64,000 nt of DNA from Caulobacter vibrioides OR37 (lineage in GTDB: Bacteria > Pseudomonadota > Alphaproteobacteria > Caulobacterales > Caulobacteraceae): assembly GCF_000372645.1 (NCBI RefSeq), contig NZ_APMP01000004.1, positions 62,001-126,000 of the forward strand, in the 5' to 3' direction. The notes beneath the pieces were generated by a model that made no database searches, was not told where the DNA came from, and was given only the letters and a program-made list of their open reading frames with translations. A program made the position numbers and the translations under genes. Shown piece after piece: positions 15,970 through 27,667 of the stretch. Position 1 is the stretch's first letter. Each line of letters begins with the position of its first letter.

Positions 15970-17190
15970 TCAGACGACGGCCAGCGCTGACCTTGCCTGG
16001 CGGCGGCGGCGCGAGACCCACAGCGCTATCGCCAACACGAACGAGAGGGCCAGACACGCGCCGGACGCCACCAGCACGCCTCGCGCGTCCTGGACAGTCA
16101 CGAAGAACGAGCAGAGCATCGGGCCGGCGGCCGCGCCCACCGCCTGAACACTGGGCGCGAGCAGCACCGCGCGCCGCGAGGGATCGGACTCGATGACGAA
16201 GGGCGCTTGCAAGGCCTGCAGGAAGCCCCAGGCCAGTCCATGGAGACCCGCGAGAACGAAGAAGACGCCCGAACCGGGCAGCCCCCACAGACCGACCAGC
16301 ACCGCCAGGAAGATCGGCGCGCAGACCAGCAAGGCGCGATGATAGGCGATCTTGTCGGCCAGCACCGCCGCCAGACCCGAGCCCGCGATCGAAGCGCCCA
16401 AGGCCAGGGCGACGGCCAGCCCTCCCTGGACGGGCGTCAGCCCCGCCTGCCCCGCCAGCCGCTCCACATAGGCCAGGAAACCGATGAAGAACGAGAAGAT
16501 CAGGAAGACCGCCGCCAGGCTGACATAGGCCGCCTTTGGAATCGGCTCGGCCAGAACCGGCTCGTCGCTCCGGTTGCCCGCCAAGGGCGCGAGGCGGTCT
16601 GGCAAGACGAGCGCGATGATCCCCGCCAGCGCGGCGCTGGCTCCCAGGGTGGCGAAGCCCGCGTTGGCGCCCAACGCGGGCGAGACCAGGATCGGTATGC
16701 CGGCCGCGCACGCGACTTGCAGAACCGCCTGGCTGACCAGGAACACCCCGCTCCAGCGTCCCGGGGTCGGCGAGCGGACGATCATCAGCGTCGTCAGCCA
16801 GACAATGGCGCCCTCGGCCAAGCCCGCGAGACCGCGCGTCACCACGACGCCAAGCCCGGAAACCTCGAACGCGGCGAAATTGATCGCGGCCAGAACGAGC
16901 GCCGCGGTCAGGCCGATCAGCTTGAGGCGGCGGGGCGGCAACAGGGCGTCTGCAAGGCCAACGCCCAAGCCGATGGCGAGAAACTCGATGGTCACGCTCC
17001 AGCCCAGTTGGCTGACATCCAGACGCCCCGCGGTGACCAGCCCGCCCAGCACCACGGGCTGGACGCCGGCCATGATCAGGGCGATCGAGCCCACCGCGAG
17101 GAAGGCGGCGATCCGCGCCGCCGACGGCCGCTGACCGATCCAGCCGTCATCGGCCCTCGACGCGCGCGCTTGGGTGTCCTCGGCCGACAT
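15970..17190 (-). CDS. Major facilitator superfamily transporter
   Basis: Inner-membrane secondary transporter of 406 residues with about twelve hydrophobic segments separated by short basic loops (for example RSPTPGRWSG and VSRRRRQARS at the C terminus). The N-terminal stretch MSAEDTQARASRADDGWIGQ is cytoplasmic. It is divergent from the TetR gene, and the 16-bp operator at 17247-17262 lies 57 bases upstream, so it belongs to the TetR regulon proposed here. Together with the TonB receptor at 18.4 kb it would carry the pathway substrate across both membranes. Direction and substrate are not shown by the sequence. Confidence 0.85.
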   Translation of the reverse strand: MSAEDTQARASRADDGWIGQRPSAARIAAFLAVGSIALIMAGVQPVVLGGLVTAGRLDVSQLGWSVTIEFLAIGLGVGLADALLPPRRLKLIGLTAALVLAAINFAAFEVSGLGVVVTRGLAGLAEGAIVWLTTLMIVRSPTPGRWSGVFLVSQAVLQVACAAGIPILVSPALGANAGFATLGASAALAGIIALVLPDRLAPLAGNRSDEPVLAEPIPKAAYVSLAAVFLIFSFFIGFLAYVERLAGQAGLTPVQGGLAVALALGASIAGSGLAAVLADKIAYHRALLVCAPIFLAVLVGLWGLPGSGVFFVLAGLHGLAWGFLQALQAPFVIESDPSRRAVLLAPSVQAVGAAAGPMLCSFFVTVQDARGVLVASGACLALSFVLAIALWVSRRRRQARSALAVV

Positions 17191-17246: not shown

Positions 17247-17262
17247 GTTAGCTTTTGCTATC
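17247..17262. promoter_or_regulatory. Operator site A of the TetR regulon
   Basis: GTTAGCTTTTGCTATC, a 6-4-6 inverted repeat with five of six arm bases paired. It lies between the divergent MFS and TetR genes. It is the most diverged arm sequence of the five sites (TAGC instead of TAGT), but the change is compensated on both arms. Confidence 0.7.
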
Positions 17263-17478
17263 GCAAGGCCATCGTCAACCGGTCTTGGGAGCGATGATCC
17301 TAGGACATGCCGCTTTCATTGGCGTCACCTCGCCTCTTCCGCCACGCCGCCAGCGCTTGGCGGACGGCTTCAAGGCGGTTCTCGGGCGCGGCCTCGCCGC
17401 GACAGGTTCTCTTCAAGCGTCGGTATTGCTATCTGACGATGGAGGTCGCTGGTCCGCGGCCCTCTTCAAGGACGCCTG

Positions 17479-18132
17479 GTGAGCAATCCCGAACTCGAAG
17501 CCAAGTCGCGACCGTCGCGGCGCAACGGCATCAATACCTTCGAAGCCATCTTGGCGACCGCCGGAGAGCTCCTGGCCGAGGTGGGCTTCGAGCGGCTGAC
17601 AACGAATCTGGTCTGCGAGCGGGCGGGCCTGACTCCGCCGGCTCTCTACCGTTACTTCCCCAACAAGTACGCGCTTCTGACCGAGCTGACCCGGCGACTG
17701 ATGGACGCCCAGGACCAGGTCGTCTTCGCTTGGGTCGAGGCGGGCGGCGCCCATTGGACAACACTTTCGGCCGCCGTGGAGAGCCACATCCGCCTGCAGA
17801 AAGAGATCATCACCGTCACCCGCGCCTTCCCCGGCGGGCTCTGGATCCTGAGGGCTATCCGCGCCCTGCCGCCGCTGCAGGACGTCCGCGCCCAATCGCG
17901 CACGGCGGTGCTGGATCGGATCTATGCCTTCCGACTGCAGGACGGTCCCGCGGTCGACGAGGAACGGCTCAAGCTGTCGATGCGCGTCTCCGAACTGATG
18001 GGCTACGCGGCCATGGAAATGCTGGTCGAGGACCCCGAGCTCGACGAGGACATGGTCATCGAGGAAGTCGCCTGGATGATCGGCCGCTACCATTTCGACC
18101 TCCCCCGACGGTCGCAATTGGCCCAGGACTGA
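17479..18132 (+). CDS. TetR-family transcriptional regulator
   Basis: DNA-binding regulator of 217 residues. The N-terminal helix-turn-helix is visible as LTTNLVCERAGLTPPALYRY near 41-60, followed by FPNKYALL; the C-terminal two-thirds is the ligand-binding region. The start is a GTG with AAGGA about 8 bases upstream; no earlier start exists in frame. It lies at the centre of eight metabolic and transport genes whose upstream regions share a 16-bp palindrome, and I propose it as the regulator that reads that site. The ligand is presumably a pathway substrate or intermediate. Confidence 0.88.
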   Translation: MSNPELEAKSRPSRRNGINTFEAILATAGELLAEVGFERLTTNLVCERAGLTPPALYRYFPNKYALLTELTRRLMDAQDQVVFAWVEAGGAHWTTLSAAVESHIRLQKEIITVTRAFPGGLWILRAIRALPPLQDVRAQSRTAVLDRIYAFRLQDGPAVDEERLKLSMRVSELMGYAAMEMLVEDPELDEDMVIEEVAWMIGRYHFDLPRRSQLAQD

Positions 18133-18228
18133 TCCGGGCGCGGCCCAGATCGTGGCCGGATTGATATGGCCGACCTCGCGGGCGGAACCTCGCGAGCGGA
18201 CCTTCCAATTCCGCGCGAACGCTTTTTA

Positions 18229-18252
18229 CCCAGTTTTCGCCCGTTAACTGGG
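18229..18252. promoter_or_regulatory. Second inverted repeat upstream of the TonB receptor
   Basis: CCCAGTT (18229-18235) and AACTGGG (18246-18252) form a perfect 7-bp inverted repeat with a 10-base centre, about 125 bases upstream of the receptor start and 97 bases after the TetR stop. It could be an operator for another regulator or a weak stem-loop ending the TetR transcript; no T-run follows. Confidence 0.4.
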
Positions 18253-18314
18253 CGCCATGACGGCCGCGCGTCGCGCGGCCTCGCGACGGCTTGCGCGCAT
18301 CCCCCTTGCATCGC

Positions 18315-18330
18315 GATAGTTTTTATTATC
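18315..18330. promoter_or_regulatory. Operator site B of the TetR regulon
   Basis: GATAGTTTTTATTATC, 6-4-6 geometry, five of six arm bases paired. It ends 47 bases before the TonB receptor start codon, a position expected to overlap the promoter. Confidence 0.75.
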
Positions 18331-18377
18331 GTAATGGCCGGGACCGGTCGGAGTACTGGGTGTATGGGGAGAAGAAC

Positions 18378-20633
18378 ATGAAAGCGTCTATGTTCCTGGG
18401 CTGCGCCGTTCTGGCGCTGTCGGCCGGGGCGGCTGCGGCTCAGACCCAGCCCGCCAAGCAGGACAACACGGCGATCGAGGAAATCGTCGTCACCGCCCAA
18501 AAGCGTTCCGAAAACCTGCAGGACGTGCCCGTGTCGGTGACCGCCCTGACCGGCGACGCCCTCGCCGCGCGCGGCGTGAAGGACGTCCTGGCCCTCAACA
18601 ACCTCGCGCCTGGGATGCGCATCAGCTCCGCCGACGCGGCCGCCAATCCCAAGATCTACATTCGCGGCGTGGGCTTGAGCGACTTCAACCCGAACGCCTC
18701 CAGCGGCGTCGGCGTCTATGTCGATGGCGTCTATATCGGCTCGCCCCTGGCCCAGATGGCGGGCTTCTTCGATCTCGCCCAGGTCGAGGTGCTGCGCGGT
18801 CCGCAAGGCACCCTCTATGGTCGAAACACCAATGGCGGCGCGATCAACATCACCACCAAGCGCCCTAGCCAGACCTTCGGCGCGGACGCGTCGCTAGAGT
18901 ACGGCAGCTTCAACGCCGTCACGGCCGACCTCGGCGTCGGCGGCCCGATCGTGGCCGACAAGCTGGCGTTCCGCGCCGCCGCGCAATACGTCAAGGATGA
19001 CGGCTACACCTACAATCGCGTCACCGGTCACGACCTCAACGCCGCCAACCACTGGGCGGGTCGTCTCTCGATGCTGTACACGCCGAGCTCGGATTTCGAG
19101 CTGCTGGCGCAGGTCAACCGCTACGTCAATCGCGGCGACGCCACCGCTCCTCAGCACAGGGCGCTGTTCCCGAAGACCGCCGCCGCCACGGGCCCCGACG
19201 GCTTCTGCGCCTCCTCGGCCTATTCCAGCGGCCAATGCACGGACCTGCTCGGCTATGCCGACACCGACAACAATCCCCGCGCGACGGACGCCAATCTGGA
19301 AGGCAAGGACAAGGTCGACCTGTTCGGCGCGTCCAGCCAGGCGACCTGGAAACTGGGCGGCATGTCCCTGATCTCGGTCACGGCGTGGCAGTGGGCGCAC
19401 CGCAACGACCTCGAGAACACCGACGCCAGTCCCCTGCAGATGCTCGAGATCAATTACCGGTCGCGTCAGCACCAGTTCACCCAGGAGGTGCGCCTTCAGT
19501 CCGACGACGAGGCGGCGCGCTTCAAGTGGGTGCTCGGCGGGTATTTCATGGACGAGCAGGTTCAGGACAACACCCGTCAGGACGTGCTGCGCGCTCTGCG
19601 GCCGCTATTCACAACGCCCGACAATCCGACCGGCCTCAGCCTCGATAACAGCGTCGCCGTCTTCGGCTATCCTTACACCCAGAAGACCAAGGGCTATGCC
19701 GTCTTCGGCCAGGCCGACTACAAGCTGACCGACAGGCTGACCGGCACGGTGGGTCTTCGCTGGTCCGCCGATGACAAGTCTATCGACTACAGGAGCCAGG
19801 CCGATGACGGCGCGATCGTCATCCTGATCTCCAAGCAGAGCAAGACCTTCTCGGCCGTGTCGGGCCGTCTTGGCCTGCGCTACGCCGTGAGCGACGACAC
19901 CAACGTCTACGCCACCTATAACCGGGGCTATAAGAGCGGCGGCTTCTTCGGCGGCATGGCCACCACGGCCGCCCAGATGGAGCCCTATAAGAACGAAACG
20001 CTCGACGCCTATGAGCTGGGCATGAAGTCGGAGTTCTTCGATCGTCGGGTCCGCCTGAACGTGTCGGGCTTCTATTACGACTATAAGAACCAACAGGTTT
20101 TCGCCCAGGCGACCCGCAACGGCCTGACGGTGCTGGTGCTCAGCAACGCCGCAAACTCCAAGGTCTATGGCGGCGAGGCCGAGATCACCGCTCGGCCGAT
20201 CCAGCCGCTGACCCTGACCGCGGGCCTGTCGCTGCTGCACGCCAAGTACGGCGACTACATCTCCGAAGGTAACAACTTCACCGGCAACTGGCTGCCGCAA
20301 TCGCCCAAGGTGACGTTCAACACCGCCGCGACCTGGGTCGCGCCCCTGGCGAACGGCGCCTCGATCGTGGCCAATGTCGACGCCAACTATTCGTCGAAAA
20401 TCTATTTCGACAACTCGAACGCGCCGCGCCTGTCGCAGGGCGCGGTCTGGATCGCCGGCGCTCAGCTCAGCTGGCGCTCCCCGGACCAGAAGATCGAGGC
20501 CGGCGCCTTCGCCCGCAACCTGTTCGACAAGACCTACACGGTCGCGATCTCGAACATCGACAGCCTCGGCGAGGATCTCCTCACCTACAACCGCCCCAGA
20601 AGCCTGGGCGTATTCCTGCGCTACCACTACTAG
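18378..20633 (+). CDS. TonB-dependent receptor of the TetR regulon
   Basis: Outer-membrane receptor of 751 residues without an STN domain, so it imports but does not signal. A signal peptide (MKASMFLGCAVLALSAGAAAA) is followed by a TonB box (IEEIVVTAQKR near 34-44), the plug with IYIRGVGL and VEVLRGPQGTLYGRN, and a barrel ending in VFLRYHY. The start is 18378, after GGGGAGAAG; the upstream in-frame extension to 18291 would run through the operator. Its TAG stop is the first triplet of a palindromic repeat. The adjacent enzymes suggest an organic nitrogen-containing ligand. Confidence 0.92.
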   Translation: MKASMFLGCAVLALSAGAAAAQTQPAKQDNTAIEEIVVTAQKRSENLQDVPVSVTALTGDALAARGVKDVLALNNLAPGMRISSADAAANPKIYIRGVGLSDFNPNASSGVGVYVDGVYIGSPLAQMAGFFDLAQVEVLRGPQGTLYGRNTNGGAINITTKRPSQTFGADASLEYGSFNAVTADLGVGGPIVADKLAFRAAAQYVKDDGYTYNRVTGHDLNAANHWAGRLSMLYTPSSDFELLAQVNRYVNRGDATAPQHRALFPKTAAATGPDGFCASSAYSSGQCTDLLGYADTDNNPRATDANLEGKDKVDLFGASSQATWKLGGMSLISVTAWQWAHRNDLENTDASPLQMLEINYRSRQHQFTQEVRLQSDDEAARFKWVLGGYFMDEQVQDNTRQDVLRALRPLFTTPDNPTGLSLDNSVAVFGYPYTQKTKGYAVFGQADYKLTDRLTGTVGLRWSADDKSIDYRSQADDGAIVILISKQSKTFSAVSGRLGLRYAVSDDTNVYATYNRGYKSGGFFGGMATTAAQMEPYKNETLDAYELGMKSEFFDRRVRLNVSGFYYDYKNQQVFAQATRNGLTVLVLSNAANSKVYGGEAEITARPIQPLTLTAGLSLLHAKYGDYISEGNNFTGNWLPQSPKVTFNTAATWVAPLANGASIVANVDANYSSKIYFDNSNAPRLSQGAVWIAGAQLSWRSPDQKIEAGAFARNLFDKTYTVAISNIDSLGEDLLTYNRPRSLGVFLRYHY

Positions 20634-20742
20634 AGCGCGTTAGGTTTAAGTTCGAGCGGTTAAACCGCTCGAACGCGCTCTAAATATTTGAATTTAGAGC
20701 CTGTCCGCTTCAAATGATCCCATTTGAAGCGGACAGGCTCTA
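20631..20742. repeat. TAGAGC-bounded palindromic repeat, two hairpins
   Basis: The first hairpin pairs TAGAGCGCGTT (20631-20641) with AACGCGCTCTA (20672-20682) and contains an inner palindrome at 20651-20673. The second is a perfect 22-bp inverted repeat, 20695-20716 with 20721-20742, around a 4-base ATCC loop. The first TAG is the receptor stop codon. It lies between the receptor and the convergent aldolase gene and may block read-through both ways. Confidence 0.88.
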
Positions 20743-20774
20743 CGACACGTCGGTCGGCTTACGCGTCGCCGCGA

Positions 20775-21425
20775 TCAGCGTTGCCCGTAGGATTTGAACC
20801 GCAGCAGGATGCGGTCCATTTCGTCCTCCGCCAGCAGGCTGGGCCCGCCGATTGCCAGAGTTCCCCAATACACGGCCGCTTGTTCCTCGACCTCCTCGGC
20901 GATGGCCAGGGCGAAATCGAGATTGGGCGCGGCGACGATCTGGCCATGATTGGCCATCAGCGTGGCATAGCGGCCGTCCAGCGCCTCCACCACCGCCTGG
21001 GCCAACTCGACCGAACCAAAGGTGGCGTAGGGCGCGACCGGCACGCTGCTGCCCCCGCTGACGGCGACCATGTAGTGCATGGCCGGGATCGGCCGACCAG
21101 CGCAGGCCAGGATCGTCGCGTGGCGCGAATGGCAGTGGACCACGGCGCCGACATCGGGACGGCGATCGAGAATCCCCTGATGCATCCGCCATTCGCTGGA
21201 TGGCTTCAGCGCGCCTTCGGGCGAGGAGCCGTCGGGCCGGATCAGAACCATGTGCTCGGCGGTCAGCCGCCCGGCCGGGACGCCGCTGGGCGTGACCAGC
21301 ATGTCGGGACCGCAGCGCGCCGAGACATTGCCGGACGTGCCCCGGTTGAGGCCCCGTGCGTCCATGGCCTGCATCACCTCGACCATGCGCGCGCGCAGGG
21401 CGGCTTCTTGAGGAATCCCGCTCAT
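20775..21425 (-). CDS. Class II aldolase/adducin-family protein
   Basis: Zinc-dependent aldolase family (FucA/AraD type), 216 residues; such enzymes split a phosphorylated hydroxy-keto compound. A glutamate in SSEWRMH, the two histidines in VVHCHSRHAT and a third in ANHGQIV match the catalytic glutamate and zinc ligands of L-fuculose-phosphate aldolase. The start at 21425 overlaps the kinase stop by one base (TGATG), so the pair is translationally coupled; the phosphorylated kinase product is its likely substrate. The frame stays open upstream to 21614 but that part is a shadow of the kinase gene. Confidence 0.88.
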   Translation of the reverse strand: MSGIPQEAALRARMVEVMQAMDARGLNRGTSGNVSARCGPDMLVTPSGVPAGRLTAEHMVLIRPDGSSPEGALKPSSEWRMHQGILDRRPDVGAVVHCHSRHATILACAGRPIPAMHYMVAVSGGSSVPVAPYATFGSVELAQAVVEALDGRYATLMANHGQIVAAPNLDFALAIAEEVEEQAAVYWGTLAIGGPSLLAEDEMDRILLRFKSYGQR

Positions 21426-22372
21426 CACGCCGCCTCGCTCAGGGTCATCTGGCGCATCGCCGCCTCGGTGGCCTCGAAGCTCTCGACCTTGCCCAGCGTG
21501 GCGAGGCCCTGGGCGACGAGCGCGGCGGTGGCCGTCCCGAAGCGCGCGGCGTCCAGCGGCGCCCAGCCGCGTGACAGGGCGGCGATGAAGCCGGCGCAGT
21601 AGGAATCCCCGCAACTGGTCGTGTCGACCGGCGTGATCGCATAGGCGGGCAAGGTCGTGCTGACATCGTCAAGGACGACCACCGAGCCCCGACCGCCATT
21701 CTTGATAATACAGGCCTTGGCGCCCCAGGACCGGAAGGTCTCGGCGGCGGCGAAAAGGTCCTGCTGACCGGTCAGGAACACCGCCTCGGCGGCGCTCGGC
21801 AGGAAATAGTCGACGTGGGGAAGCAAGCGCCGAACCTCTTCGATCGCCGAAGGCTGCGGCGCGATCAGGTCACAGGTGACCACAGCGCCCGCGCGCGAGG
21901 CCGCTTGAACGATCGAGAGCCCTTCGCCGCCATCGAGCTTGGGACCGCCGACGCCGCCATAGTGCAGGAAGCCGACCTCCGAGGCCGCCTGGAGAGCGCC
22001 CGGCGTGACCCGGGCCAACATGCCCGCGCCCAAGGCATGGAAACCAGGACGCACGCCGCTGGACGAGACGGCCAGCAGGGTCGTCGAGCTAGGCAGGCCT
22101 GGCAAGGTTTCCAGGTCGGAGACATCGACGCCGGCGTCGCTCAGCGCCGCGCGGATAAAGCGGCCGGTCAGGTCGTCGCCCACCGCCGAGATCAGCCGAC
22201 TGGCCACGCCCAAACGCGCCGCCAGCAGCGCTGGAGCCCCCGCGGTCCCGGCGGGCGCGCAGGCGATGCCTTCGATCAGGCCGGTCCCCTCCACCTTGGG
22301 CAGCTCATCTATGGCGCGGGCGACCACGTCCAGGGTGGTCAGCCCGATGCACGCCAATCCGTTCTTCTTCAT
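21425..22372 (-). CDS. PfkB-family carbohydrate kinase
   Basis: Ribokinase-like ATP-dependent kinase of 315 residues. N-terminal LACIGLTTLDVVARAI and the C-terminal signature DTTSCGDSYCAGFIAAL, with the catalytic aspartate in GDS, are clear; GTAGAPALLAARLG matches the substrate-binding region. Start ATG 22372 is preceded by GGGAGGATC; the upstream in-frame ATG at 22402 would put ten residues ahead of that site. The operator at 22420-22435 lies between it and the divergent aminotransferase gene. It probably phosphorylates a hydroxy or polyol intermediate for the coupled aldolase. Confidence 0.9.
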   Translation of the reverse strand: MKKNGLACIGLTTLDVVARAIDELPKVEGTGLIEGIACAPAGTAGAPALLAARLGVASRLISAVGDDLTGRFIRAALSDAGVDVSDLETLPGLPSSTTLLAVSSSGVRPGFHALGAGMLARVTPGALQAASEVGFLHYGGVGGPKLDGGEGLSIVQAASRAGAVVTCDLIAPQPSAIEEVRRLLPHVDYFLPSAAEAVFLTGQQDLFAAAETFRSWGAKACIIKNGGRGSVVVLDDVSTTLPAYAITPVDTTSCGDSYCAGFIAALSRGWAPLDAARFGTATAALVAQGLATLGKVESFEATEAAMRQMTLSEAA

Positions 22373-22419
22373 CAGAGATCCTCCCAATGCATTGACAGAC
22401 AATATGCCTCGGCCATTAT

Positions 22420-22435
22420 AATAGTCAAAACTATC
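22420..22435. promoter_or_regulatory. Operator site C of the TetR regulon
   Basis: AATAGTCAAAACTATC, 6-4-6 geometry; read on the other strand it is GATAGTTTTGACTATT. It lies 16 bases before the aminotransferase start and 47 before the kinase start, so one site can control both divergent units. Confidence 0.78.
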
Positions 22436-22451
22436 TTATAGGGGACAAGGC

Positions 22452-23726
22452 ATGGCCTGGACGAACAGCAAGGATGCGGCGCTGCGTGAACGCGCCATGG
22501 CGGTGATCCCCAACGGGATGTACGGCCACCAGTCCGTGATGCTGCTGCCCGACGACTATCCGCAGTTCTACGATCGGGCCCAAGGCGCCTATCTGTGGGA
22601 TACCGATGGCAACCGCTACATCGACTACCTGTGCGGCTATGGCCCGAACCTGTTCGGCTATGGGCATGAGGCGATCGACGCGGCCTATGTCGACCGCATG
22701 AAGCGCGGCGACACCATGACGGGTCCGGGCCAGGCCATGGTCGAACTGGCCGAGGCCCTGACCGCTCAGGTCAGTCACGCCGACTGGGCGATGTTCTGCA
22801 AGAACGGCACCGACGCCACGACCATGGCGATGATGATCGCCCGCAACTTCACCCGCAAGAAGACCATCGTGCTGGCCAAGGGCGCCTATCACGGCGCCGC
22901 GCCCTGGTGCACGCCGCTGAAAAACGGCGTCACCGAAGCGGACCGCGCCAACCAGGTGTTCTACGAATACAACAACGTCGAAAGCCTGGAAGCGGCGGTC
23001 AAGGCGGCCGGTTCGGACCTGGCGGCCATCTTCGCCTCGCCCATCAAGCACGACACCTTCGTCGACCAGGAACTGCCCGATCCGGCCTACGCCCGACGCG
23101 CCCGCGAACTGTGCGACGAGCACGAGGCGCTGCTGATCGTCGATGACGTTCGCGCCGGCTTCCGCCTGGCGCGTGACTGCAGCTGGTCGTTGGTCGGGGT
23201 CAAGCCGGATCTGTCGGCCTGGGGCAAGGCGATCGCCAACGGTCACCCCATCTCGGCCCTCCTGGGCGCCGAAAAAGCTCGCTTTGCCGCAGCGACCATC
23301 TATGCGACCGGCTCGTTCTGGTTCTCGGCCGCGCCCATGGCCGCCTCCCTCGCGACGCTGAAGCTGATCCGCGACACCGATTATCTGGAACGCACCATCG
23401 CGCTGGGCGAGCGCCTACGCGCGGGCCTCGACGAGGCCGCCGGCCGCCATGGCTTCACCCTGCGCCAGACGGGTCCGGCTCAGATGCCCCTGATCATGTT
23501 CGACGACGACCCCACCGGGGCCAAGGCCTACTTCTGGAACAACGCCCTGCTGAAGCGCGGCGTCTACTTCCACCCCTGGCACAACATGTTCATGACCACG
23601 GCCATGACCGACGCCGACATCGACCACACGGTCGAGGCGGCCGATGTGTCCTTCAAGCTCCTGAAGGCCGCCGGCCCCCTGCCCCCGGTCGAGAAACTGG
23701 CCTTCCTGCATTCCATGGTCGATTGA
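22452..23726 (+). CDS. Class III aminotransferase (glutamate-1-semialdehyde mutase-like)
   Basis: PLP-dependent enzyme of 424 residues. The cofactor lysine lies in SAWGKAIANGHPISALLG and the PLP-ring aspartate in LLIVDDVRAGFRLA, where hemL-type proteins have DEV; N-terminal YGHQSVMLL and the middle NGTDATTMAMMIAR fit the GSA-aminomutase branch. It is unlikely to be the haem enzyme because it lies in a catabolic regulon and departs from the hemL DEV motif. A transaminase that removes an amino group from a pathway intermediate, or a mutase, is the better guess. A strong terminator follows. Confidence 0.88.
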   Translation: MAWTNSKDAALRERAMAVIPNGMYGHQSVMLLPDDYPQFYDRAQGAYLWDTDGNRYIDYLCGYGPNLFGYGHEAIDAAYVDRMKRGDTMTGPGQAMVELAEALTAQVSHADWAMFCKNGTDATTMAMMIARNFTRKKTIVLAKGAYHGAAPWCTPLKNGVTEADRANQVFYEYNNVESLEAAVKAAGSDLAAIFASPIKHDTFVDQELPDPAYARRARELCDEHEALLIVDDVRAGFRLARDCSWSLVGVKPDLSAWGKAIANGHPISALLGAEKARFAAATIYATGSFWFSAAPMAASLATLKLIRDTDYLERTIALGERLRAGLDEAAGRHGFTLRQTGPAQMPLIMFDDDPTGAKAYFWNNALLKRGVYFHPWHNMFMTTAMTDADIDHTVEAADVSFKLLKAAGPLPPVEKLAFLHSMVD

Positions 23727-23834
23727 CGGCCCGCCCTCGCGGAAACGCGGGGGCGACCGCCCGCCTGACACGGGCGCCCGGACTTGCCCCGAGCGCCCTT
23801 CCCGCGATGTCTCCGGCGGCGTACCGCTCATGGA

Positions 23835-23866
23835 AAGGGCCCCTCCTCGGAGGGGCCCTTCTTTTT
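23835..23866 (+). terminator. Rho-independent terminator of the aminotransferase gene
   Basis: A perfect 12-bp stem (AAGGGCCCCTCC with GGAGGGGCCCTT) with a 2-base loop followed by CTTTTT. It lies between convergent genes and may weakly stop the opposite transcript too. Confidence 0.9.
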
Positions 23867-23888
23867 CGTCGACGATACGGCCTTCGCC

Positions 23889-25436
23889 TCAGGCCGAGGT
23901 GGCGCGCGTGACGCCGAAGCGCCGCAGCACATTGTGGGTGATGACCTCGATGAAAGGATCGCGCGCGGCCAGGCCGTGAGCCCATTCGGTGGTGCCGCTG
24001 TTGAACACCTCGCCCTCGCCACGCTTGAAGCTGGCCAGCACGGCGTGGCCGCGCATGACCCTGGCCTGCGCCTCGGCGCTAGCGTCGCCGTAGGTGACCT
24101 GGGCGATAACGTCCAACTTCTCGGGCGGGATGATCGGGTTGTAGCCCCGACCCGCCTCCTCGCCGAACGCGCAAGGCGCGACGCCGATGATCTCCAGGGT
24201 CTCGGGAACGCCCAGCATCGGCACGGCCTTGGGCAGGCCGTCGTCGCCGAACTGGAAGCGGCAGCCGTCGCTCTCATAGCCGATCAGCGGCAGCTCGCCG
24301 CCGATCACGTCGCCATAGAACAGGTCCGAGCCCTCCAGGGCCCAGTGCCGATCGTCATAGATCGTGAAGCCCGCCTGGCCGCGCGACACGCACATGCCCA
24401 GCCGGTGATAGCCGGCGAAGACGAAGCTGAGGCCCGTGAGCGCGGCCTCCGGACGCTGGAACGCCGGGTGCGACCACAGGTGCGTGGCCTTCTCGGGCGG
24501 CACGTCCTCGGCCTCGAAACCCTTCCACTTGTGGCAGACATAGGTCTTGCCGTCGTTCTCCCAGCGCACCTTCCAGAAGCAGCTGTTCCCCGAGAAGATC
24601 GCCGCTTTGCCGCCCGCGTCGACGAACCGCTCGACCTGGTCGCGCTGGGGGCCGGACCAGTATTCGCTGTGGCCAACGAACAGCGCGGCCGCGTAGCCGT
24701 CCAGGAGGTCCTGTTCGACGTCCAGGTCGTAGTCCGTGGCGAAATCCAGCGCGTAGCCGTTGGACTCCGCCCAGGCGACGAAAGCGTGCTCCCATTTGTG
24801 CAGGAAGCCGGCCGAGCCGTCATAGGGCGAGGCGCGATGCTCGACCATCCAGGCCATGTCGGCGGCCCAAGGCGCTTCCTTAAAGCCGCGCTTTCGCAGG
24901 TTGATCAGGCGCGGCGGATTGGGCGGCGGCGCGACGATCAACGGTGGAAACGGTCGCTGCGTCGACAGCACGCCGATCGCCTGGTCCATCGCCTCGACGA
25001 ACGGGACCTGGCCGCTCATCAGCCCCGTGACGTTGGAGTAGGCGTTGGCGCCGCCCCAATAGTTGTAGGATTGGTAGGTGTTGGTCGCCAGCACCATCAA
25101 GGCGGTCGCGCGACGCACGCCGACGGGCGGCTTGACGACCACGAAGTGATGGGCTTCGGCCCCGGTTCCGTCGGTCAGAACGATATCGTAATAGCCCGAG
25201 GCCCAGTCCTCGCCGATCTCGATCTCGAACGCTGCGGGCCAGCCGCAGCCGTCGCGATCAGCGTTGGGCGGAACCGGATGATGATCGACCCGCAGGCCGT
25301 CGAGCTCAAACACGGCGCGGCGCTCGGCCCCGACCCTGGCGATCGAAAGCCGGCAAGAGCCACCGTCGCCGCTGGCGTGGAGAGAGACGCGCTCGCCTGG
25401 GCGAGCGCTCAAGCGATCCGTATAGCAAGCCAGCAT
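23889..25436 (-). CDS. N,N-dimethylformamidase large-subunit-like hydrolase
   Basis: A 515-residue protein of the family of the beta (large) subunit of N,N-dimethylformamidase, an iron-dependent amidohydrolase. Recognisable are the N-terminal beta-sandwich (SGYYDIVLTDGTGAEAHHF), the TNTYQSYNYWGGANAYS segment near 115-131, LLDGYAAALFVGHSEYWS, FSGNSCFWKVRWE, and the C-terminal EVFNSGTTEWAHGL and ITHNVLRRFG. No small-subunit gene is visible, so the oligomer may differ from classical DMFase. GGAGG lies 10 bases before ATG 25436. The operator at 25525-25540 places it in the TetR regulon, probably opening an amide bond in the imported compound. Confidence 0.82.
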   Translation of the reverse strand: MLACYTDRLSARPGERVSLHASGDGGSCRLSIARVGAERRAVFELDGLRVDHHPVPPNADRDGCGWPAAFEIEIGEDWASGYYDIVLTDGTGAEAHHFVVVKPPVGVRRATALMVLATNTYQSYNYWGGANAYSNVTGLMSGQVPFVEAMDQAIGVLSTQRPFPPLIVAPPPNPPRLINLRKRGFKEAPWAADMAWMVEHRASPYDGSAGFLHKWEHAFVAWAESNGYALDFATDYDLDVEQDLLDGYAAALFVGHSEYWSGPQRDQVERFVDAGGKAAIFSGNSCFWKVRWENDGKTYVCHKWKGFEAEDVPPEKATHLWSHPAFQRPEAALTGLSFVFAGYHRLGMCVSRGQAGFTIYDDRHWALEGSDLFYGDVIGGELPLIGYESDGCRFQFGDDGLPKAVPMLGVPETLEIIGVAPCAFGEEAGRGYNPIIPPEKLDVIAQVTYGDASAEAQARVMRGHAVLASFKRGEGEVFNSGTTEWAHGLAARDPFIEVITHNVLRRFGVTRATSA

Positions 25437-25524
25437 TCGTTTCCTCCATCCCGCGCGGTCTCGACAGCCCCAGCGACCGCGGCGCCTTCGTGGAAACGGC
25501 GACGCGACCGACCCGAGATCGTTA

Positions 25525-25540
25525 AATAGTTTTTACTACT
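25525..25540. promoter_or_regulatory. Operator site D of the TetR regulon
   Basis: AATAGTTTTTACTACT; the inner core TAGT-TTTT-ACTA is a perfect palindrome while the outer two positions are diverged. It lies 88 bases upstream of the DMFase-like gene. Confidence 0.65.
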
Positions 25541-25578
25541 ACAAAGATCCCGATCGCAAGTTTGAAGCCTGACCGGTT

Positions 25579-26421
25579 CTAACGCGCTAGGACGAGGGAG
25601 AGACTGGCCTCGGCCTGGGCGGCGAGCGCGCGGTCGTCATGCCGCCAAGGATGGAAGCCGGGCGCGTACCACGCCAGATAGGGCCCCAACACCTGCCGGA
25701 AGAGACCCGGTCGCGCGACCAGATAGCCGACCAGACGCCGCCAGCTCGTCGCGTTGTCGAGGCCGTCCTGTTTCAGCAGCAGGCCAATGTCGCGGAAGCG
25801 CTCCTTCCAGAATTCGAACGTCACCTTGCCCATGACCATCGTTCGGAACAGCCAGCGCTTGAACGGCGAAAGATCGCGCGTCGCGAAAAGGAACGTGTCG
25901 AAAGCCACGCCCTTGTGCTCGATTTCCTCGATGCTGTGCCATTGCCAGAGCCGGCGCAGGTCTTCCGGAAAATCCTTGAAGTGGCGCGGATCGCTGAGCC
26001 AGGCATGGGCGAAGATGCCCGTGAAATGTTCGAGGGCGGCGGTTACGGCCAACTCGACTTCCGGACCCGCGTCCTTGCTGACCTGGATATCCTTGCGGAT
26101 CAGCGCATCGATTTCCTTGGTCTCATAGCCGCCCGCCGCGACCTGGCGGTTGAAGGCCATGTGCTCGCGCGAATGGTAGGCTTCCTGCTGCGCGAACTCC
26201 TCGACCTGACCGCGCAGCGGCTCGGACAGTTCCGGAAGATATCGACGCACGCTGTTCACGAAGAACGACTCCCCCTGCGGGAACGTCAGTGACAGCGCGT
26301 TGAAGAAGGCGGTGACGACCGGATCACCGCCACACCACCAGCGCTCATAATTGACGCCGCGTCCAAATTCGACGTTACGCGGCTTGATCTCCAGGTCCGC
26401 AGGGCCTCCGAAAGCGCGCAT
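25579..26421 (-). CDS. PF10118 predicted metal-dependent hydrolase
   Basis: A 280-residue protein of the COG3687 family, annotated as metal-dependent hydrolase but biochemically poorly known. Two helical metal-site candidates are visible: EEFAQQEAYHSREHMAFN near 77-94 and WQWHSIEEIEHKGVAFDTF near 160-178, giving a ferritin-like pattern of Glu and His. The start at 26421 is preceded by AAGGAGGAG; an ATG at 26436 lies ahead of that site and is rejected. The perfect operator copy at 26575-26590 lies 154 bases upstream, so it is probably part of the TetR regulon and might be an oxygenase or hydrolase acting on the pathway. Confidence 0.78.
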   Translation of the reverse strand: MRAFGGPADLEIKPRNVEFGRGVNYERWWCGGDPVVTAFFNALSLTFPQGESFFVNSVRRYLPELSEPLRGQVEEFAQQEAYHSREHMAFNRQVAAGGYETKEIDALIRKDIQVSKDAGPEVELAVTAALEHFTGIFAHAWLSDPRHFKDFPEDLRRLWQWHSIEEIEHKGVAFDTFLFATRDLSPFKRWLFRTMVMGKVTFEFWKERFRDIGLLLKQDGLDNATSWRRLVGYLVARPGLFRQVLGPYLAWYAPGFHPWRHDDRALAAQAEASLSLVLAR

Positions 26422-26444
26422 GAACTCCTCCTTCACAGCGACGC

Positions 26445-26497
26445 CTAGAGCCCATCTGGTCCGGAATGAAACATCGACTCCAGGAAAAGGGCTCTAG
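26445..26497. repeat. TAGAGC-bounded palindromic repeat
   Basis: CTAGAGCCC (26445-26453) pairs with GGGCTCTAG (26489-26497) around a 35-base centre. It lies between operator E and the PF10118 gene, in the 5' leader of that gene. Confidence 0.75.
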
Positions 26498-26574
26498 ATT
26501 CAAGTTCTTGGTACGCATTGGAGCGGTTCGCCCGCCCTCGACCCAACGCGCACCGGAACGATGCCACATATTTC

Positions 26575-26590
26575 GATAGTTTCAACTATC
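26575..26590. promoter_or_regulatory. Operator site E of the TetR regulon
   Basis: GATAGTTTCAACTATC, the only copy with six perfectly paired bases in each arm. It lies between the end of the sensor kinase gene and the PF10118 gene on the same strand, so the PF10118 gene is the likely target. Confidence 0.75.
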
Positions 26591-26643
26591 AAATGACGAA
26601 CGCGTCACCTTTGTCGGTCTTTTCCGACTTGCCGATCGCGGGC

Positions 26644-27667
26644 TCAGGTCGAGGGGCGTCTGGGCATCGTGATCGCGAAGACGGAAAGACCATCGCGCCA
26701 CGCATAGCTCACCTGCCCTCCGTGGGCCTCGGCGATGCCACGCACCACGGCGAGGCCCAGGCCAGAGCCGCTCTTGACGTCGACATCCTCGCCGCGCCGG
26801 AAGGGCTCGAACGCGCGCCGCGCGAGGCTGTCGGGCATTCCAGGGCCCCGGTCGATGACGCTGATCTCGACCTCGGCTTCCGACACGCGCGTGACGATCT
26901 CCAGAACACAGGGCGCGGCGTACTTCACGGCGTTGTCGACCAGCGCGAGCACCGCCTGGCGCAAGCGAACGGGATCGGCGACGCAGCGACCGCTCGCGAG
27001 GGTCATGCGCAGACCAAAGCCGGCCTTGGCGAGATCCCGCTCGACGAGACGCGCGAGCCCTTCGATCTCGGCGGCCAGATCGATCTCGACGGACCGCAAT
27101 TGCAGGCGGCCGCTGTCGAGCAGGCTGACCACCCGCAGATCCTCGACCAGCCGCGCGAGGGCGTCGGCCTGGTGGTGCAGGGACCGCAGTAGCGCGGGCT
27201 CTGGCTGGAACACGCCTTCGGCCAGCCCCTGAAGGCGGCCCTTCAGGATCGTCACGGGCGTTCGCAGCTCGTGAGCGATCACGCTGTTCCAGGTGACAAT
27301 ATCGTCCACCGCCTTCTCCAGGCGGTCGGCCATGGCGTTGAAGTCGGCGATCATCTGGCTGGCCTCGGTCGGCGCCGGCGATTTCGCGCGCGGCCTCGGC
27401 CAGCGCCTCCAGCGGCTCGACCATGCGTCGGGCGACGCGCGTGGCGACCACGCTCGCGGCTATGCCGCCCAGCACGATGCAAACCGAGTAGATGCCCCAC
27501 TCGACCGGCCCAGGGAGGATCGCGTCCTCGGCCGACAGCAGCTTGGGCGCGAACTGGAATAGCAGGCTGTAAGCCGCCATCACGAATGTGAGGCTGAAGA
27601 CCAGGGTCGCCAGGGTCATGCCGACGATGGTCCAGTTGAGCCGCTGGGAAAGGCTCTGCGCTTTCAT
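26644..27667 (-). pseudogene. BaeS-like sensor histidine kinase, frameshifted in the HAMP region
   Basis: Coding runs in one frame from ATG 27667 (two membrane segments at about 12-38 and 58-76, then RMVEPLEALAEAAREIAGA) and continues in another frame from about 27369 (TEASQMIADFNAMADRLE, H-box VIAHELRTPVTILKG, N-box VDNAVKYA, GSGLGLAVVRG) to 26644. Skipping one G near 27370 joins them. The joined HAMP is still about ten residues short, so an out-of-frame deletion is likelier than a single read error. Unless corrected, translation yields a membrane protein without kinase domains. Its start overlaps the response regulator stop (ATGA). Confidence 0.78.

Follow-up and report, generated by a model that had tools for sequence, protein, structure and literature searches.

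What do five copies of one 16-bp palindrome control in a gene cluster of Caulobacter vibrioides OR37? The cluster lies in the window, by which we mean the whole stretch of 64,000 nucleotides analysed here (contig NZ_APMP01000004.1, positions 62,001 to 126,000). Its palindromes share a 6-4-6 form, for which mismatches were counted against GATAGTTTTNACTATC. The answer we favour, to which we would give about an even chance and which is predicted from the sequences, is that a TetR-repressed regulon imports a phytosphingosine-type base and degrades it in the manner of a sugar. Palindrome 1 (17247..17262, plus strand, GTTAGC-TTTT-GCTATC, three mismatches) lies 56 bp from the start of a gene for a major facilitator superfamily (MFS) transporter (15970..17190, minus strand, PF07690) and 216 bp from the gene of a TetR-family regulator (17479..18132, plus strand, PF00440). 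Palindrome 2 (18315..18330, plus strand, GATAGT-TTTT-ATTATC, one mismatch) is 47 bp from the start of a TonB-dependent receptor (18378..20633, plus strand, PF00593 and PF07715). Palindrome 3 (22420..22435, minus strand; the plus strand reads AATAGT-CAAA-ACTATC, with one mismatch in the minus-strand form) stands between a divergent kinase-aldolase pair and a class III aminotransferase, 47 bp from the kinase and 16 bp from the aminotransferase. Palindrome 4 (25525..25540, plus strand, AATAGT-TTTT-ACTACT, three mismatches) is 88 bp from a gene for an amide hydrolase resembling N,N-dimethylformamidase (DMFase), and palindrome 5 (26575..26590, plus strand, GATAGT-TTCA-ACTATC, one mismatch) is 153 bp from a PF10118 gene.

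The sites are rare. With up to three mismatches, the window holds six matches (one site being counted on both strands), against a mean of 0.21 and a maximum of 2 in 100 dinucleotide shuffles. In the OR37 genome (4,430,425 bases in 70 contigs), where the reversed pattern served as the control, all three places with at most one mismatch fall within the window cluster, and exactly two mismatches adds one further place, C32:46437. Allowing three mismatches gave 11 + 7 strand matches versus 2 + 3 for the reversed control. When the 4-base spacer was left free, at most one arm mismatch was found at five places (three in the cluster, C32:46437 and C15:15220), and the control gave 0. The C15:15220 match sits within overlapping open reading frames and looks like chance. 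This one place in five inside open reading frames is what could be cited for the view that the palindromes as a whole are chance matches or a dispersed repeat, a view that we regard as scarcely credible and reject on the strength of the shuffles, the reversed control, and the conservation counts and footprint described next.

Conservation was assessed with a matrix built from the five window sites, a score of at least 15 being taken as a site. From named genomes, 80 related loci were fetched via the aminotransferase, and upstream regions were scored in the 37 nearest by gene content, leaving aside matches that start beyond query residue 40, short upstream DNA and identities below set floors. 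A site precedes the aminotransferase in 36 of 37 loci (0.5% of shuffles reach this score), the TonB receptor in 25 of 27 (0.9%), the DMFase-like gene in 12 of 19 (0.7%) and the PF10118 gene in three of four; for no gene did more than 0.93% of the shuffles reach 15. The MFS gene is preceded by a site in only 2 of 21 loci (L069 and L071, at the same place as palindrome 1). Of the 19 loci without a site there, 15 have the MFS gene directly behind the aldolase gene on the kinase-aldolase strand; of the others, L093 has it behind the aldolase in another layout, in L084 it adjoins the aldolase across a gap, and in L145 and L146 it follows tetR. Likewise, in the 7 of 19 loci where the DMFase-like gene has no site, it is positioned behind the kinase or aldolase gene. 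Most of the low counts for these two genes are thus explained by an operon layout that elsewhere places them behind the kinase-aldolase promoter. The sites recur before the same genes in loci of Caulobacter, Phenylobacterium, Hyphomonas, Brevundimonas and Sphingomonas, and a footprint is visible: in 12 aligned kinase-aminotransferase intergenic regions (of 38 available), 15 columns are invariant, 12 of them within the palindrome and 3 within 3 bp of it. Taken together, these results make it very likely, in our judgement, that the palindromes are conserved sites of a regulon.

The binding protein is likely the cluster's own TetR, acting as a repressor, a prediction based on its linkage to the cluster and on the stretch PPALYRYFPNK, which is invariant in 18 of 18 aligned TetRs and which we take to be the recognition helix. 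In 32 of the 37 loci, the stretch that was fetched includes a TetR relative; three of the other five are short contigs, while L088 and L143 are not short. As in other local TetR-family repressors of catabolic clusters, the palindromes stand near start codons, the tetR gene is local and, in the window, it has an upstream site of its own. In contrast to such repressors, however, the site before tetR reaches 15 in only 11 of 31 loci, and a palindrome before tetR was therefore rejected as a universal mark of the system.

The OR37 genome encodes a second TetR of the same subfamily (G000:C1:4510-5124, G000 being the OR37 genome; 49% identity to the window TetR), which is included among the 18 and lies between genes resembling a flavin-dependent (FAD) oxidase and an adenosine monophosphate (AMP) ligase. 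It is flanked on both sides by palindromes of the same form, GATAGTTATAGCTACT and CGTAGTTATAACTATC (L005:660-1520, equal to G000:C1:4436-5296), and this locus is possibly a sister regulon. Since the second protein keeps the same recognition stretch, it could share the sites. The shared operator might then be real and yet have another binder, such as this second TetR, or several TetR paralogues might act on one regulon; in G091, too, a 48% TetR paralogue has AATAGTTTTTACTATC beside it. We consider this improbable, because the linkage to the cluster belongs to the local TetR.

The regulon extends beyond the window. The next best place in the genome outside the cluster, with a matrix score of 26.3, is the C32 site, upstream of a cytochrome P450 gene (G000:C32:46437-47829), which is likely a sixth regulon member. 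A P450 orthologue in G130 has its own site (24.4), and the one in Caulobacter sp. 602-1 immediately follows the MFS gene. Novosphingobium capsulatum has, in its version, a P450 of 39% identity that is divergent from the aldolase gene, with AATAGTCTGGACTATT in between. PF10118 orthologues of at least 65% identity have a site in four of five genomes when the window is included and in three of four without the window's own, as opposed to 0 of 14 for PF10118 paralogues of 38-48% identity.

Several observations weigh against the regulon reading. At two arm mismatches, specificity is lost in the OR37 genome (37 places versus 12 in the reversed control). The free-spacer pattern likewise has background, with 60 places versus 18 in the control over 23 genomes, which are those with an aminotransferase of at least 76% identity among the 99 genomes with an aminotransferase match. 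The claim consequently rests on the strong sites and on their conservation. The aminotransferase of L143 has no site, the only miss among the 37 loci. In G053, the upstream scores are only 6.6 for the P450 orthologue, 9.0 for the DMFase-like gene and 11.7 for the PF10118 gene. Where the kinase-aldolase pair lies apart from the aminotransferase (six of nine or ten such kinase-bearing genomes were taken; G032, G061, G090 and G205 were left out), G053 and G019 have a site, and the pairs of G169, G039, G208 and G172 do not. Finally, some loci and family genomes are the same organisms and many are close kin, and the counts are therefore not independent trials. As a separate observation, the site-bearing pairs of G053 (C144, L226) and G019 (C1, L221) lie near a saccharopine-dehydrogenase-like gene, G019 also having an aldehyde dehydrogenase gene there.

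An earlier note, made from the window sequence, had proposed that five palindromes of this form define a TetR-controlled regulon. The pattern search and shuffles bear out all five sites at their coordinates, and the distances given above agree with their proposed placement upstream of the MFS, TonB receptor, kinase and aminotransferase, DMFase-like and PF10118 genes. The compensated arm changes (TAGC/GCTA) that it pointed out recur symmetrically in relatives, for example as GATAGC-TTTT-GCTATC. Two of the checks that it had named were genome-wide commonness and conservation in relatives: the palindrome proved rare, with all places of at most one mismatch in the cluster, and is kept before the same genes in several genera. 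What did not stand is the completeness of the five-site set, as the P450 site and the second TetR locus lie outside the window and the sixth site had been missed.

What, then, does the regulon degrade? The class III aminotransferase (22452..23726, plus strand, PF00202) is, judged by sequence, a member of the FumI (aminopentol aminotransferase) family. Among solved structures, FumI (6hbs) scores 519 bits and the next, glutamate-1-semialdehyde aminomutase, 167; the identity to FumI is 57% (229 of 400 aligned residues). In a tree of 42 rows, FumI sits on a long branch and does not group within the Caulobacterales clades. The earlier note had the class III family right and had not seen the kinship with FumI. 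According to the available part of the original report, FumI, from the fum cluster of Sphingopyxis sp. MTA144, uses pyruvate as the acceptor for the amino group at C2 of hydrolysed fumonisin (PMC2933618). Three further family members, one from Phenylobacterium, degrade hydrolysed fumonisin, as stated in the portion of a second report that was available (PMC9858248). The OR37 enzyme shares the subfamily and is predicted to share the C2-amine-to-pyruvate chemistry. In contrast to the OR37 cluster, the fum system acts on a substrate without a C1 hydroxyl, and a kinase and FucA-type aldolase stand outside the FumI reaction as given in that part of PMC2933618.

This kinship would suit a substrate that is not a membrane sphingoid base but a mycotoxin resembling fumonisin or another 1-deoxy analogue of sphinganine. 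However, kinase and aldolase are both present (match thresholds 1e-60 and 1e-50, respectively) in each of the 23 family genomes whose aminotransferase reaches at least 76% identity, and these two enzymes would be idle on hydrolysed fumonisin, which has no C1 hydroxyl for the kinase according to the same part of PMC2933618. Furthermore, no FumD-like esterase appears among the listed conserved neighbours, although no search aimed at FumD was made. Fumonisin is thus disfavoured as the natural substrate, and we regard a mycotoxin of this kind as very unlikely.

The two enzymes predicted to act after the aminotransferase suggest the shape of the substrate. The kinase (21425..22372, minus strand) belongs to the PfkB family, with a PF00294 score of 140 bits (cut-off 25.8), YdjH (3h49) as its nearest solved relative, and the residues D249, T250, G254 and D255 of the DTxxxGD motif invariant in 18 sequences; it reaches no equivalog cut-off in NCBIfam. 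The class II aldolase (20775..21425, minus strand, PF00596) is nearest to L-fuculose-1-phosphate aldolase (FucA; 1fua/7x78). Its residues E78, H97, H99 and H160 align with active-site residues of FucA and are invariant in 19 of 19 aligned aldolases; we take their FucA counterparts to be the catalytic Glu73 and the metal ligands His92, His94 and His155. Because it scores below the FucA cut-offs (197 bits versus 400 for the equivalog fucA TIGR01086; 209 versus 264 for the subfamily PRK08087), it is called FucA-like here and is not filed as FucA. The arrangement resembles L-fuculose and D-arabinose catabolism in having a FucA-type aldolase with catalytic and metal residues, a sugar-kinase partner and a predicted retro-aldol step that forms dihydroxyacetone phosphate. 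It differs in that the kinase is of the PfkB and not the FucK type, a transaminase instead of an isomerase would supply the ketose, and the predicted aldehyde is long-chain.

HOCH2-CO-CHOH-R is the type of compound on which known ketose kinases, 3-oxo-tetronate kinases, transketolases and aldolases of the FucA type act. Since the cleavage-side enzymes fit this structure, the amine before transamination would be a 2-amino-1,3-diol, HOCH2-CHNH2-CHOH-R, which is the head of a sphingoid base, and since FucA needs a C4 hydroxyl, a phytosphingosine-type base would fit best. The stereochemistry also agrees. In D-ribo-phytosphingosine (2S,3S,4R), the C2 ketone would, on our assignment, swap priorities at C3 and leave C4, giving (3R,4R), and this is the pair in L-fuculose-1-phosphate and D-ribulose-1-phosphate.

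We therefore propose the following route. An N-acylated 2-amino-1,3,4-triol, most likely a phytosphingosine-type base, would enter via the TonB receptor and the MFS protein, and the DMFase-like hydrolase would remove any N-acyl group. The FumI-like aminotransferase would transfer the C2 amino group to pyruvate, leaving an alkyl-tailed ketose, HOCH2-CO-CHOH-CHOH-R. Phosphorylation of C1 by the PfkB kinase would follow, and the FucA-type aldolase would cleave C3-C4 to yield dihydroxyacetone phosphate and a fatty aldehyde. For bases without a C4 hydroxyl, the P450 and the PF10118 protein may supply the one that the aldolase requires. Release of the TetR repressor would be triggered by either the substrate or one of the products. 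The alanine formed from pyruvate may be recycled by alanine racemase (called in 4 of 40 loci), D-amino-acid dehydrogenase (genes in 10 of 40) and RidA-type genes, which occur in some clusters, and the aldehyde may be taken by aldehyde dehydrogenases, found in two loci, the Brevundimonas and Sphingomonas versions. The PF10118 protein (25579..26421, minus strand) has an E / ExxH / E / ExxH pattern, and both E...ExxH half-motifs are found among its invariant residues E51, E80, H83, E131, E166 and H169 (19 sequences); it is a predicted ferritin-like di-iron protein.

The amide step is variable. The DMFase-like gene (23889..25436, minus strand, PF20254) occurs in 13 of the 23 cluster-bearing genomes, suggesting that the step is optional. 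By profile, its product matches N-acetyl-(R)-beta-phenylalanine acylase and DMFase and shares the DMFA2_C domain with both. Glu258 and Tyr124 are invariant in 18 sequences and align with what are presumably the iron ligands Glu521 and Tyr399 of DMFase. Compared with the 772-776 residues of these relatives, however, the protein has 515 and contains only the DMFA2_C domain, and is thus not a full-length large subunit (about 775 residues). No small subunit was seen beside the gene, although no search was aimed at one. The earlier outline of catabolism, in which an amide is imported and opened, the amine removed, and the carbon chain phosphorylated and cleaved, fits this evidence apart from the amide step being optional. 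We hold this general order of reactions to be probable.

Against a sphingoid base stand, first, the absence of neutral ceramidase (PF04734), which was not found in the OR37 genome and is present in 9 of 249 family genomes and in 1 of 23 cluster-bearing ones. It was rejected as a partner for want of co-occurrence with the cluster, and the DMFase-like hydrolase would have to fill its role. Second, two genomes with a somewhat more distant aminotransferase (G012 and G041, 71-72%) yielded no match to the kinase at 1e-60 or to the aldolase at 1e-50. Third, the activity of FumI may be promiscuous. Fourth, plasmid-borne relatives of the aminotransferase in Rhizobiales, Acetobacteraceae, Rhodobacterales and Variovorax adjoin substrate-binding proteins of ATP-binding cassette (ABC) transporters, which suits a soluble substrate.

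The last point bears on the main rival to a phytosphingosine-type base: the same regulon and reaction order, acting on a soluble N-acyl amino-polyol (for example, a 2-amino-2-deoxy-alditol amide), with dihydroxyacetone phosphate and a small hydroxyaldehyde as products and no lipid involved. Sugars are the usual substrates of the PfkB and FucA families. In addition to the ABC proteins, a plasmid of Pseudoroseomonas cervicalis (L230:870-8221) has, divergent from the aminotransferase gene, a row of genes for DMFase, amidase, class II aldolase and 3-oxo-tetronate kinase, the last of which scores above its cut-off. However, FumI (57%) and the other tested family members, which share 62-74% identity among themselves, use a C20 amino-alcohol as substrate, as far as the available parts of those reports go; a P450 is under the same site; and TonB uptake replaces ABC transport in this clade. 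We therefore view a soluble amino-polyol as possible but rather unlikely.

More distant relatives show the aminotransferase with exchanged partners. In the Caulobacterales-type loci with aminotransferases of 63-69% identity (L101-L148), an amidase gene lies directly behind in 37 of 42, without kinase or aldolase; of the remaining five, two have a DMFase-like gene, one is at a contig end and two have neither. In the one locus scanned, the amidase is PF01425. In one Variovorax strain, two plasmids each combine the aminotransferase with a gene annotated as a full DMFase, and in Shinella, Agrobacterium and Sinorhizobium an aldolase and an OtnK-type kinase lie near it. Plasmid pHM3 of Rhizobium sp. 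SSA_523 (L206:5069-13252) has a full-length DMFase, short DMFA2_C genes and, instead of kinase and aldolase, a split transketolase, and in Nonomuraea an aldolase (39%), a PfkB kinase (36%) and an aminotransferase (48%) occur together. Two relatives fit poorly: Pseudosulfitobacter shows only an ABC transporter and a TetR, and the Streptomyces relative (38%) lies among other genes. This distribution leads us to suggest, tentatively and at somewhat below even confidence, that phytosphingosine-type bases are degraded as disguised ketoses without sphingosine-1-phosphate lyase, by a module spread from Caulobacterales to an actinomycete, in which the amide hydrolase (DMFase-like, full DMFase or amidase) and the cleavage enzymes (aldolase with a PfkB or OtnK-type kinase, or else transketolase) vary around a FumI-like aminotransferase, and of which fumonisin detoxification by FumI would be an offshoot.

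A regulated response to sphingoid bases, including phytosphingosine, has been described in Pseudomonas aeruginosa, where it involves SphR and SphBCD (PMC5150637, PMC11893366). The available parts of these reports describe another regulator, a periplasmic oxidoreductase with cytochrome c and a predicted pyridoxal-phosphate-dependent aldolase, as opposed to the transaminase-kinase-FucA set seen here, which does not figure in them. No title or abstract retrieved from the open-licence PubMed Central literature describes a transaminase-kinase-aldolase route for sphingoid bases, in agreement with the earlier statement that no named pathway with this combination was known to its author. If the proposal is true, soil and water bacteria have a way of feeding plant and fungal sphingolipids into central sugar metabolism, and the origin of a fumonisin-detoxifying aminotransferase used in feed research is explained. 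The palindrome together with aminotransferase, kinase and aldolase would then be a search key for the route in other genomes.

Some minor features of the window remain. A weak promoter-like sequence, TTGACA-16-CATTAT (22392..22419, plus strand, 10 of 12 positions), ends just before palindrome 3; three such sites were found versus 1.5 expected. A terminator-like hairpin of 11 pairs (23835..23860, plus strand) lies downstream of the aminotransferase gene, one of nine such sites found versus 6.6 expected. In the gap that separates the TonB receptor gene from the aldolase gene (20634-20745), inspection by eye showed two long inverted repeats able to form hairpins, possibly a terminator or else a repeated element. 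Adjoining the cluster (26582-27667) is a sensor-kinase gene that is apparently split across two frames near 27360, through either a frameshift or a sequencing error.

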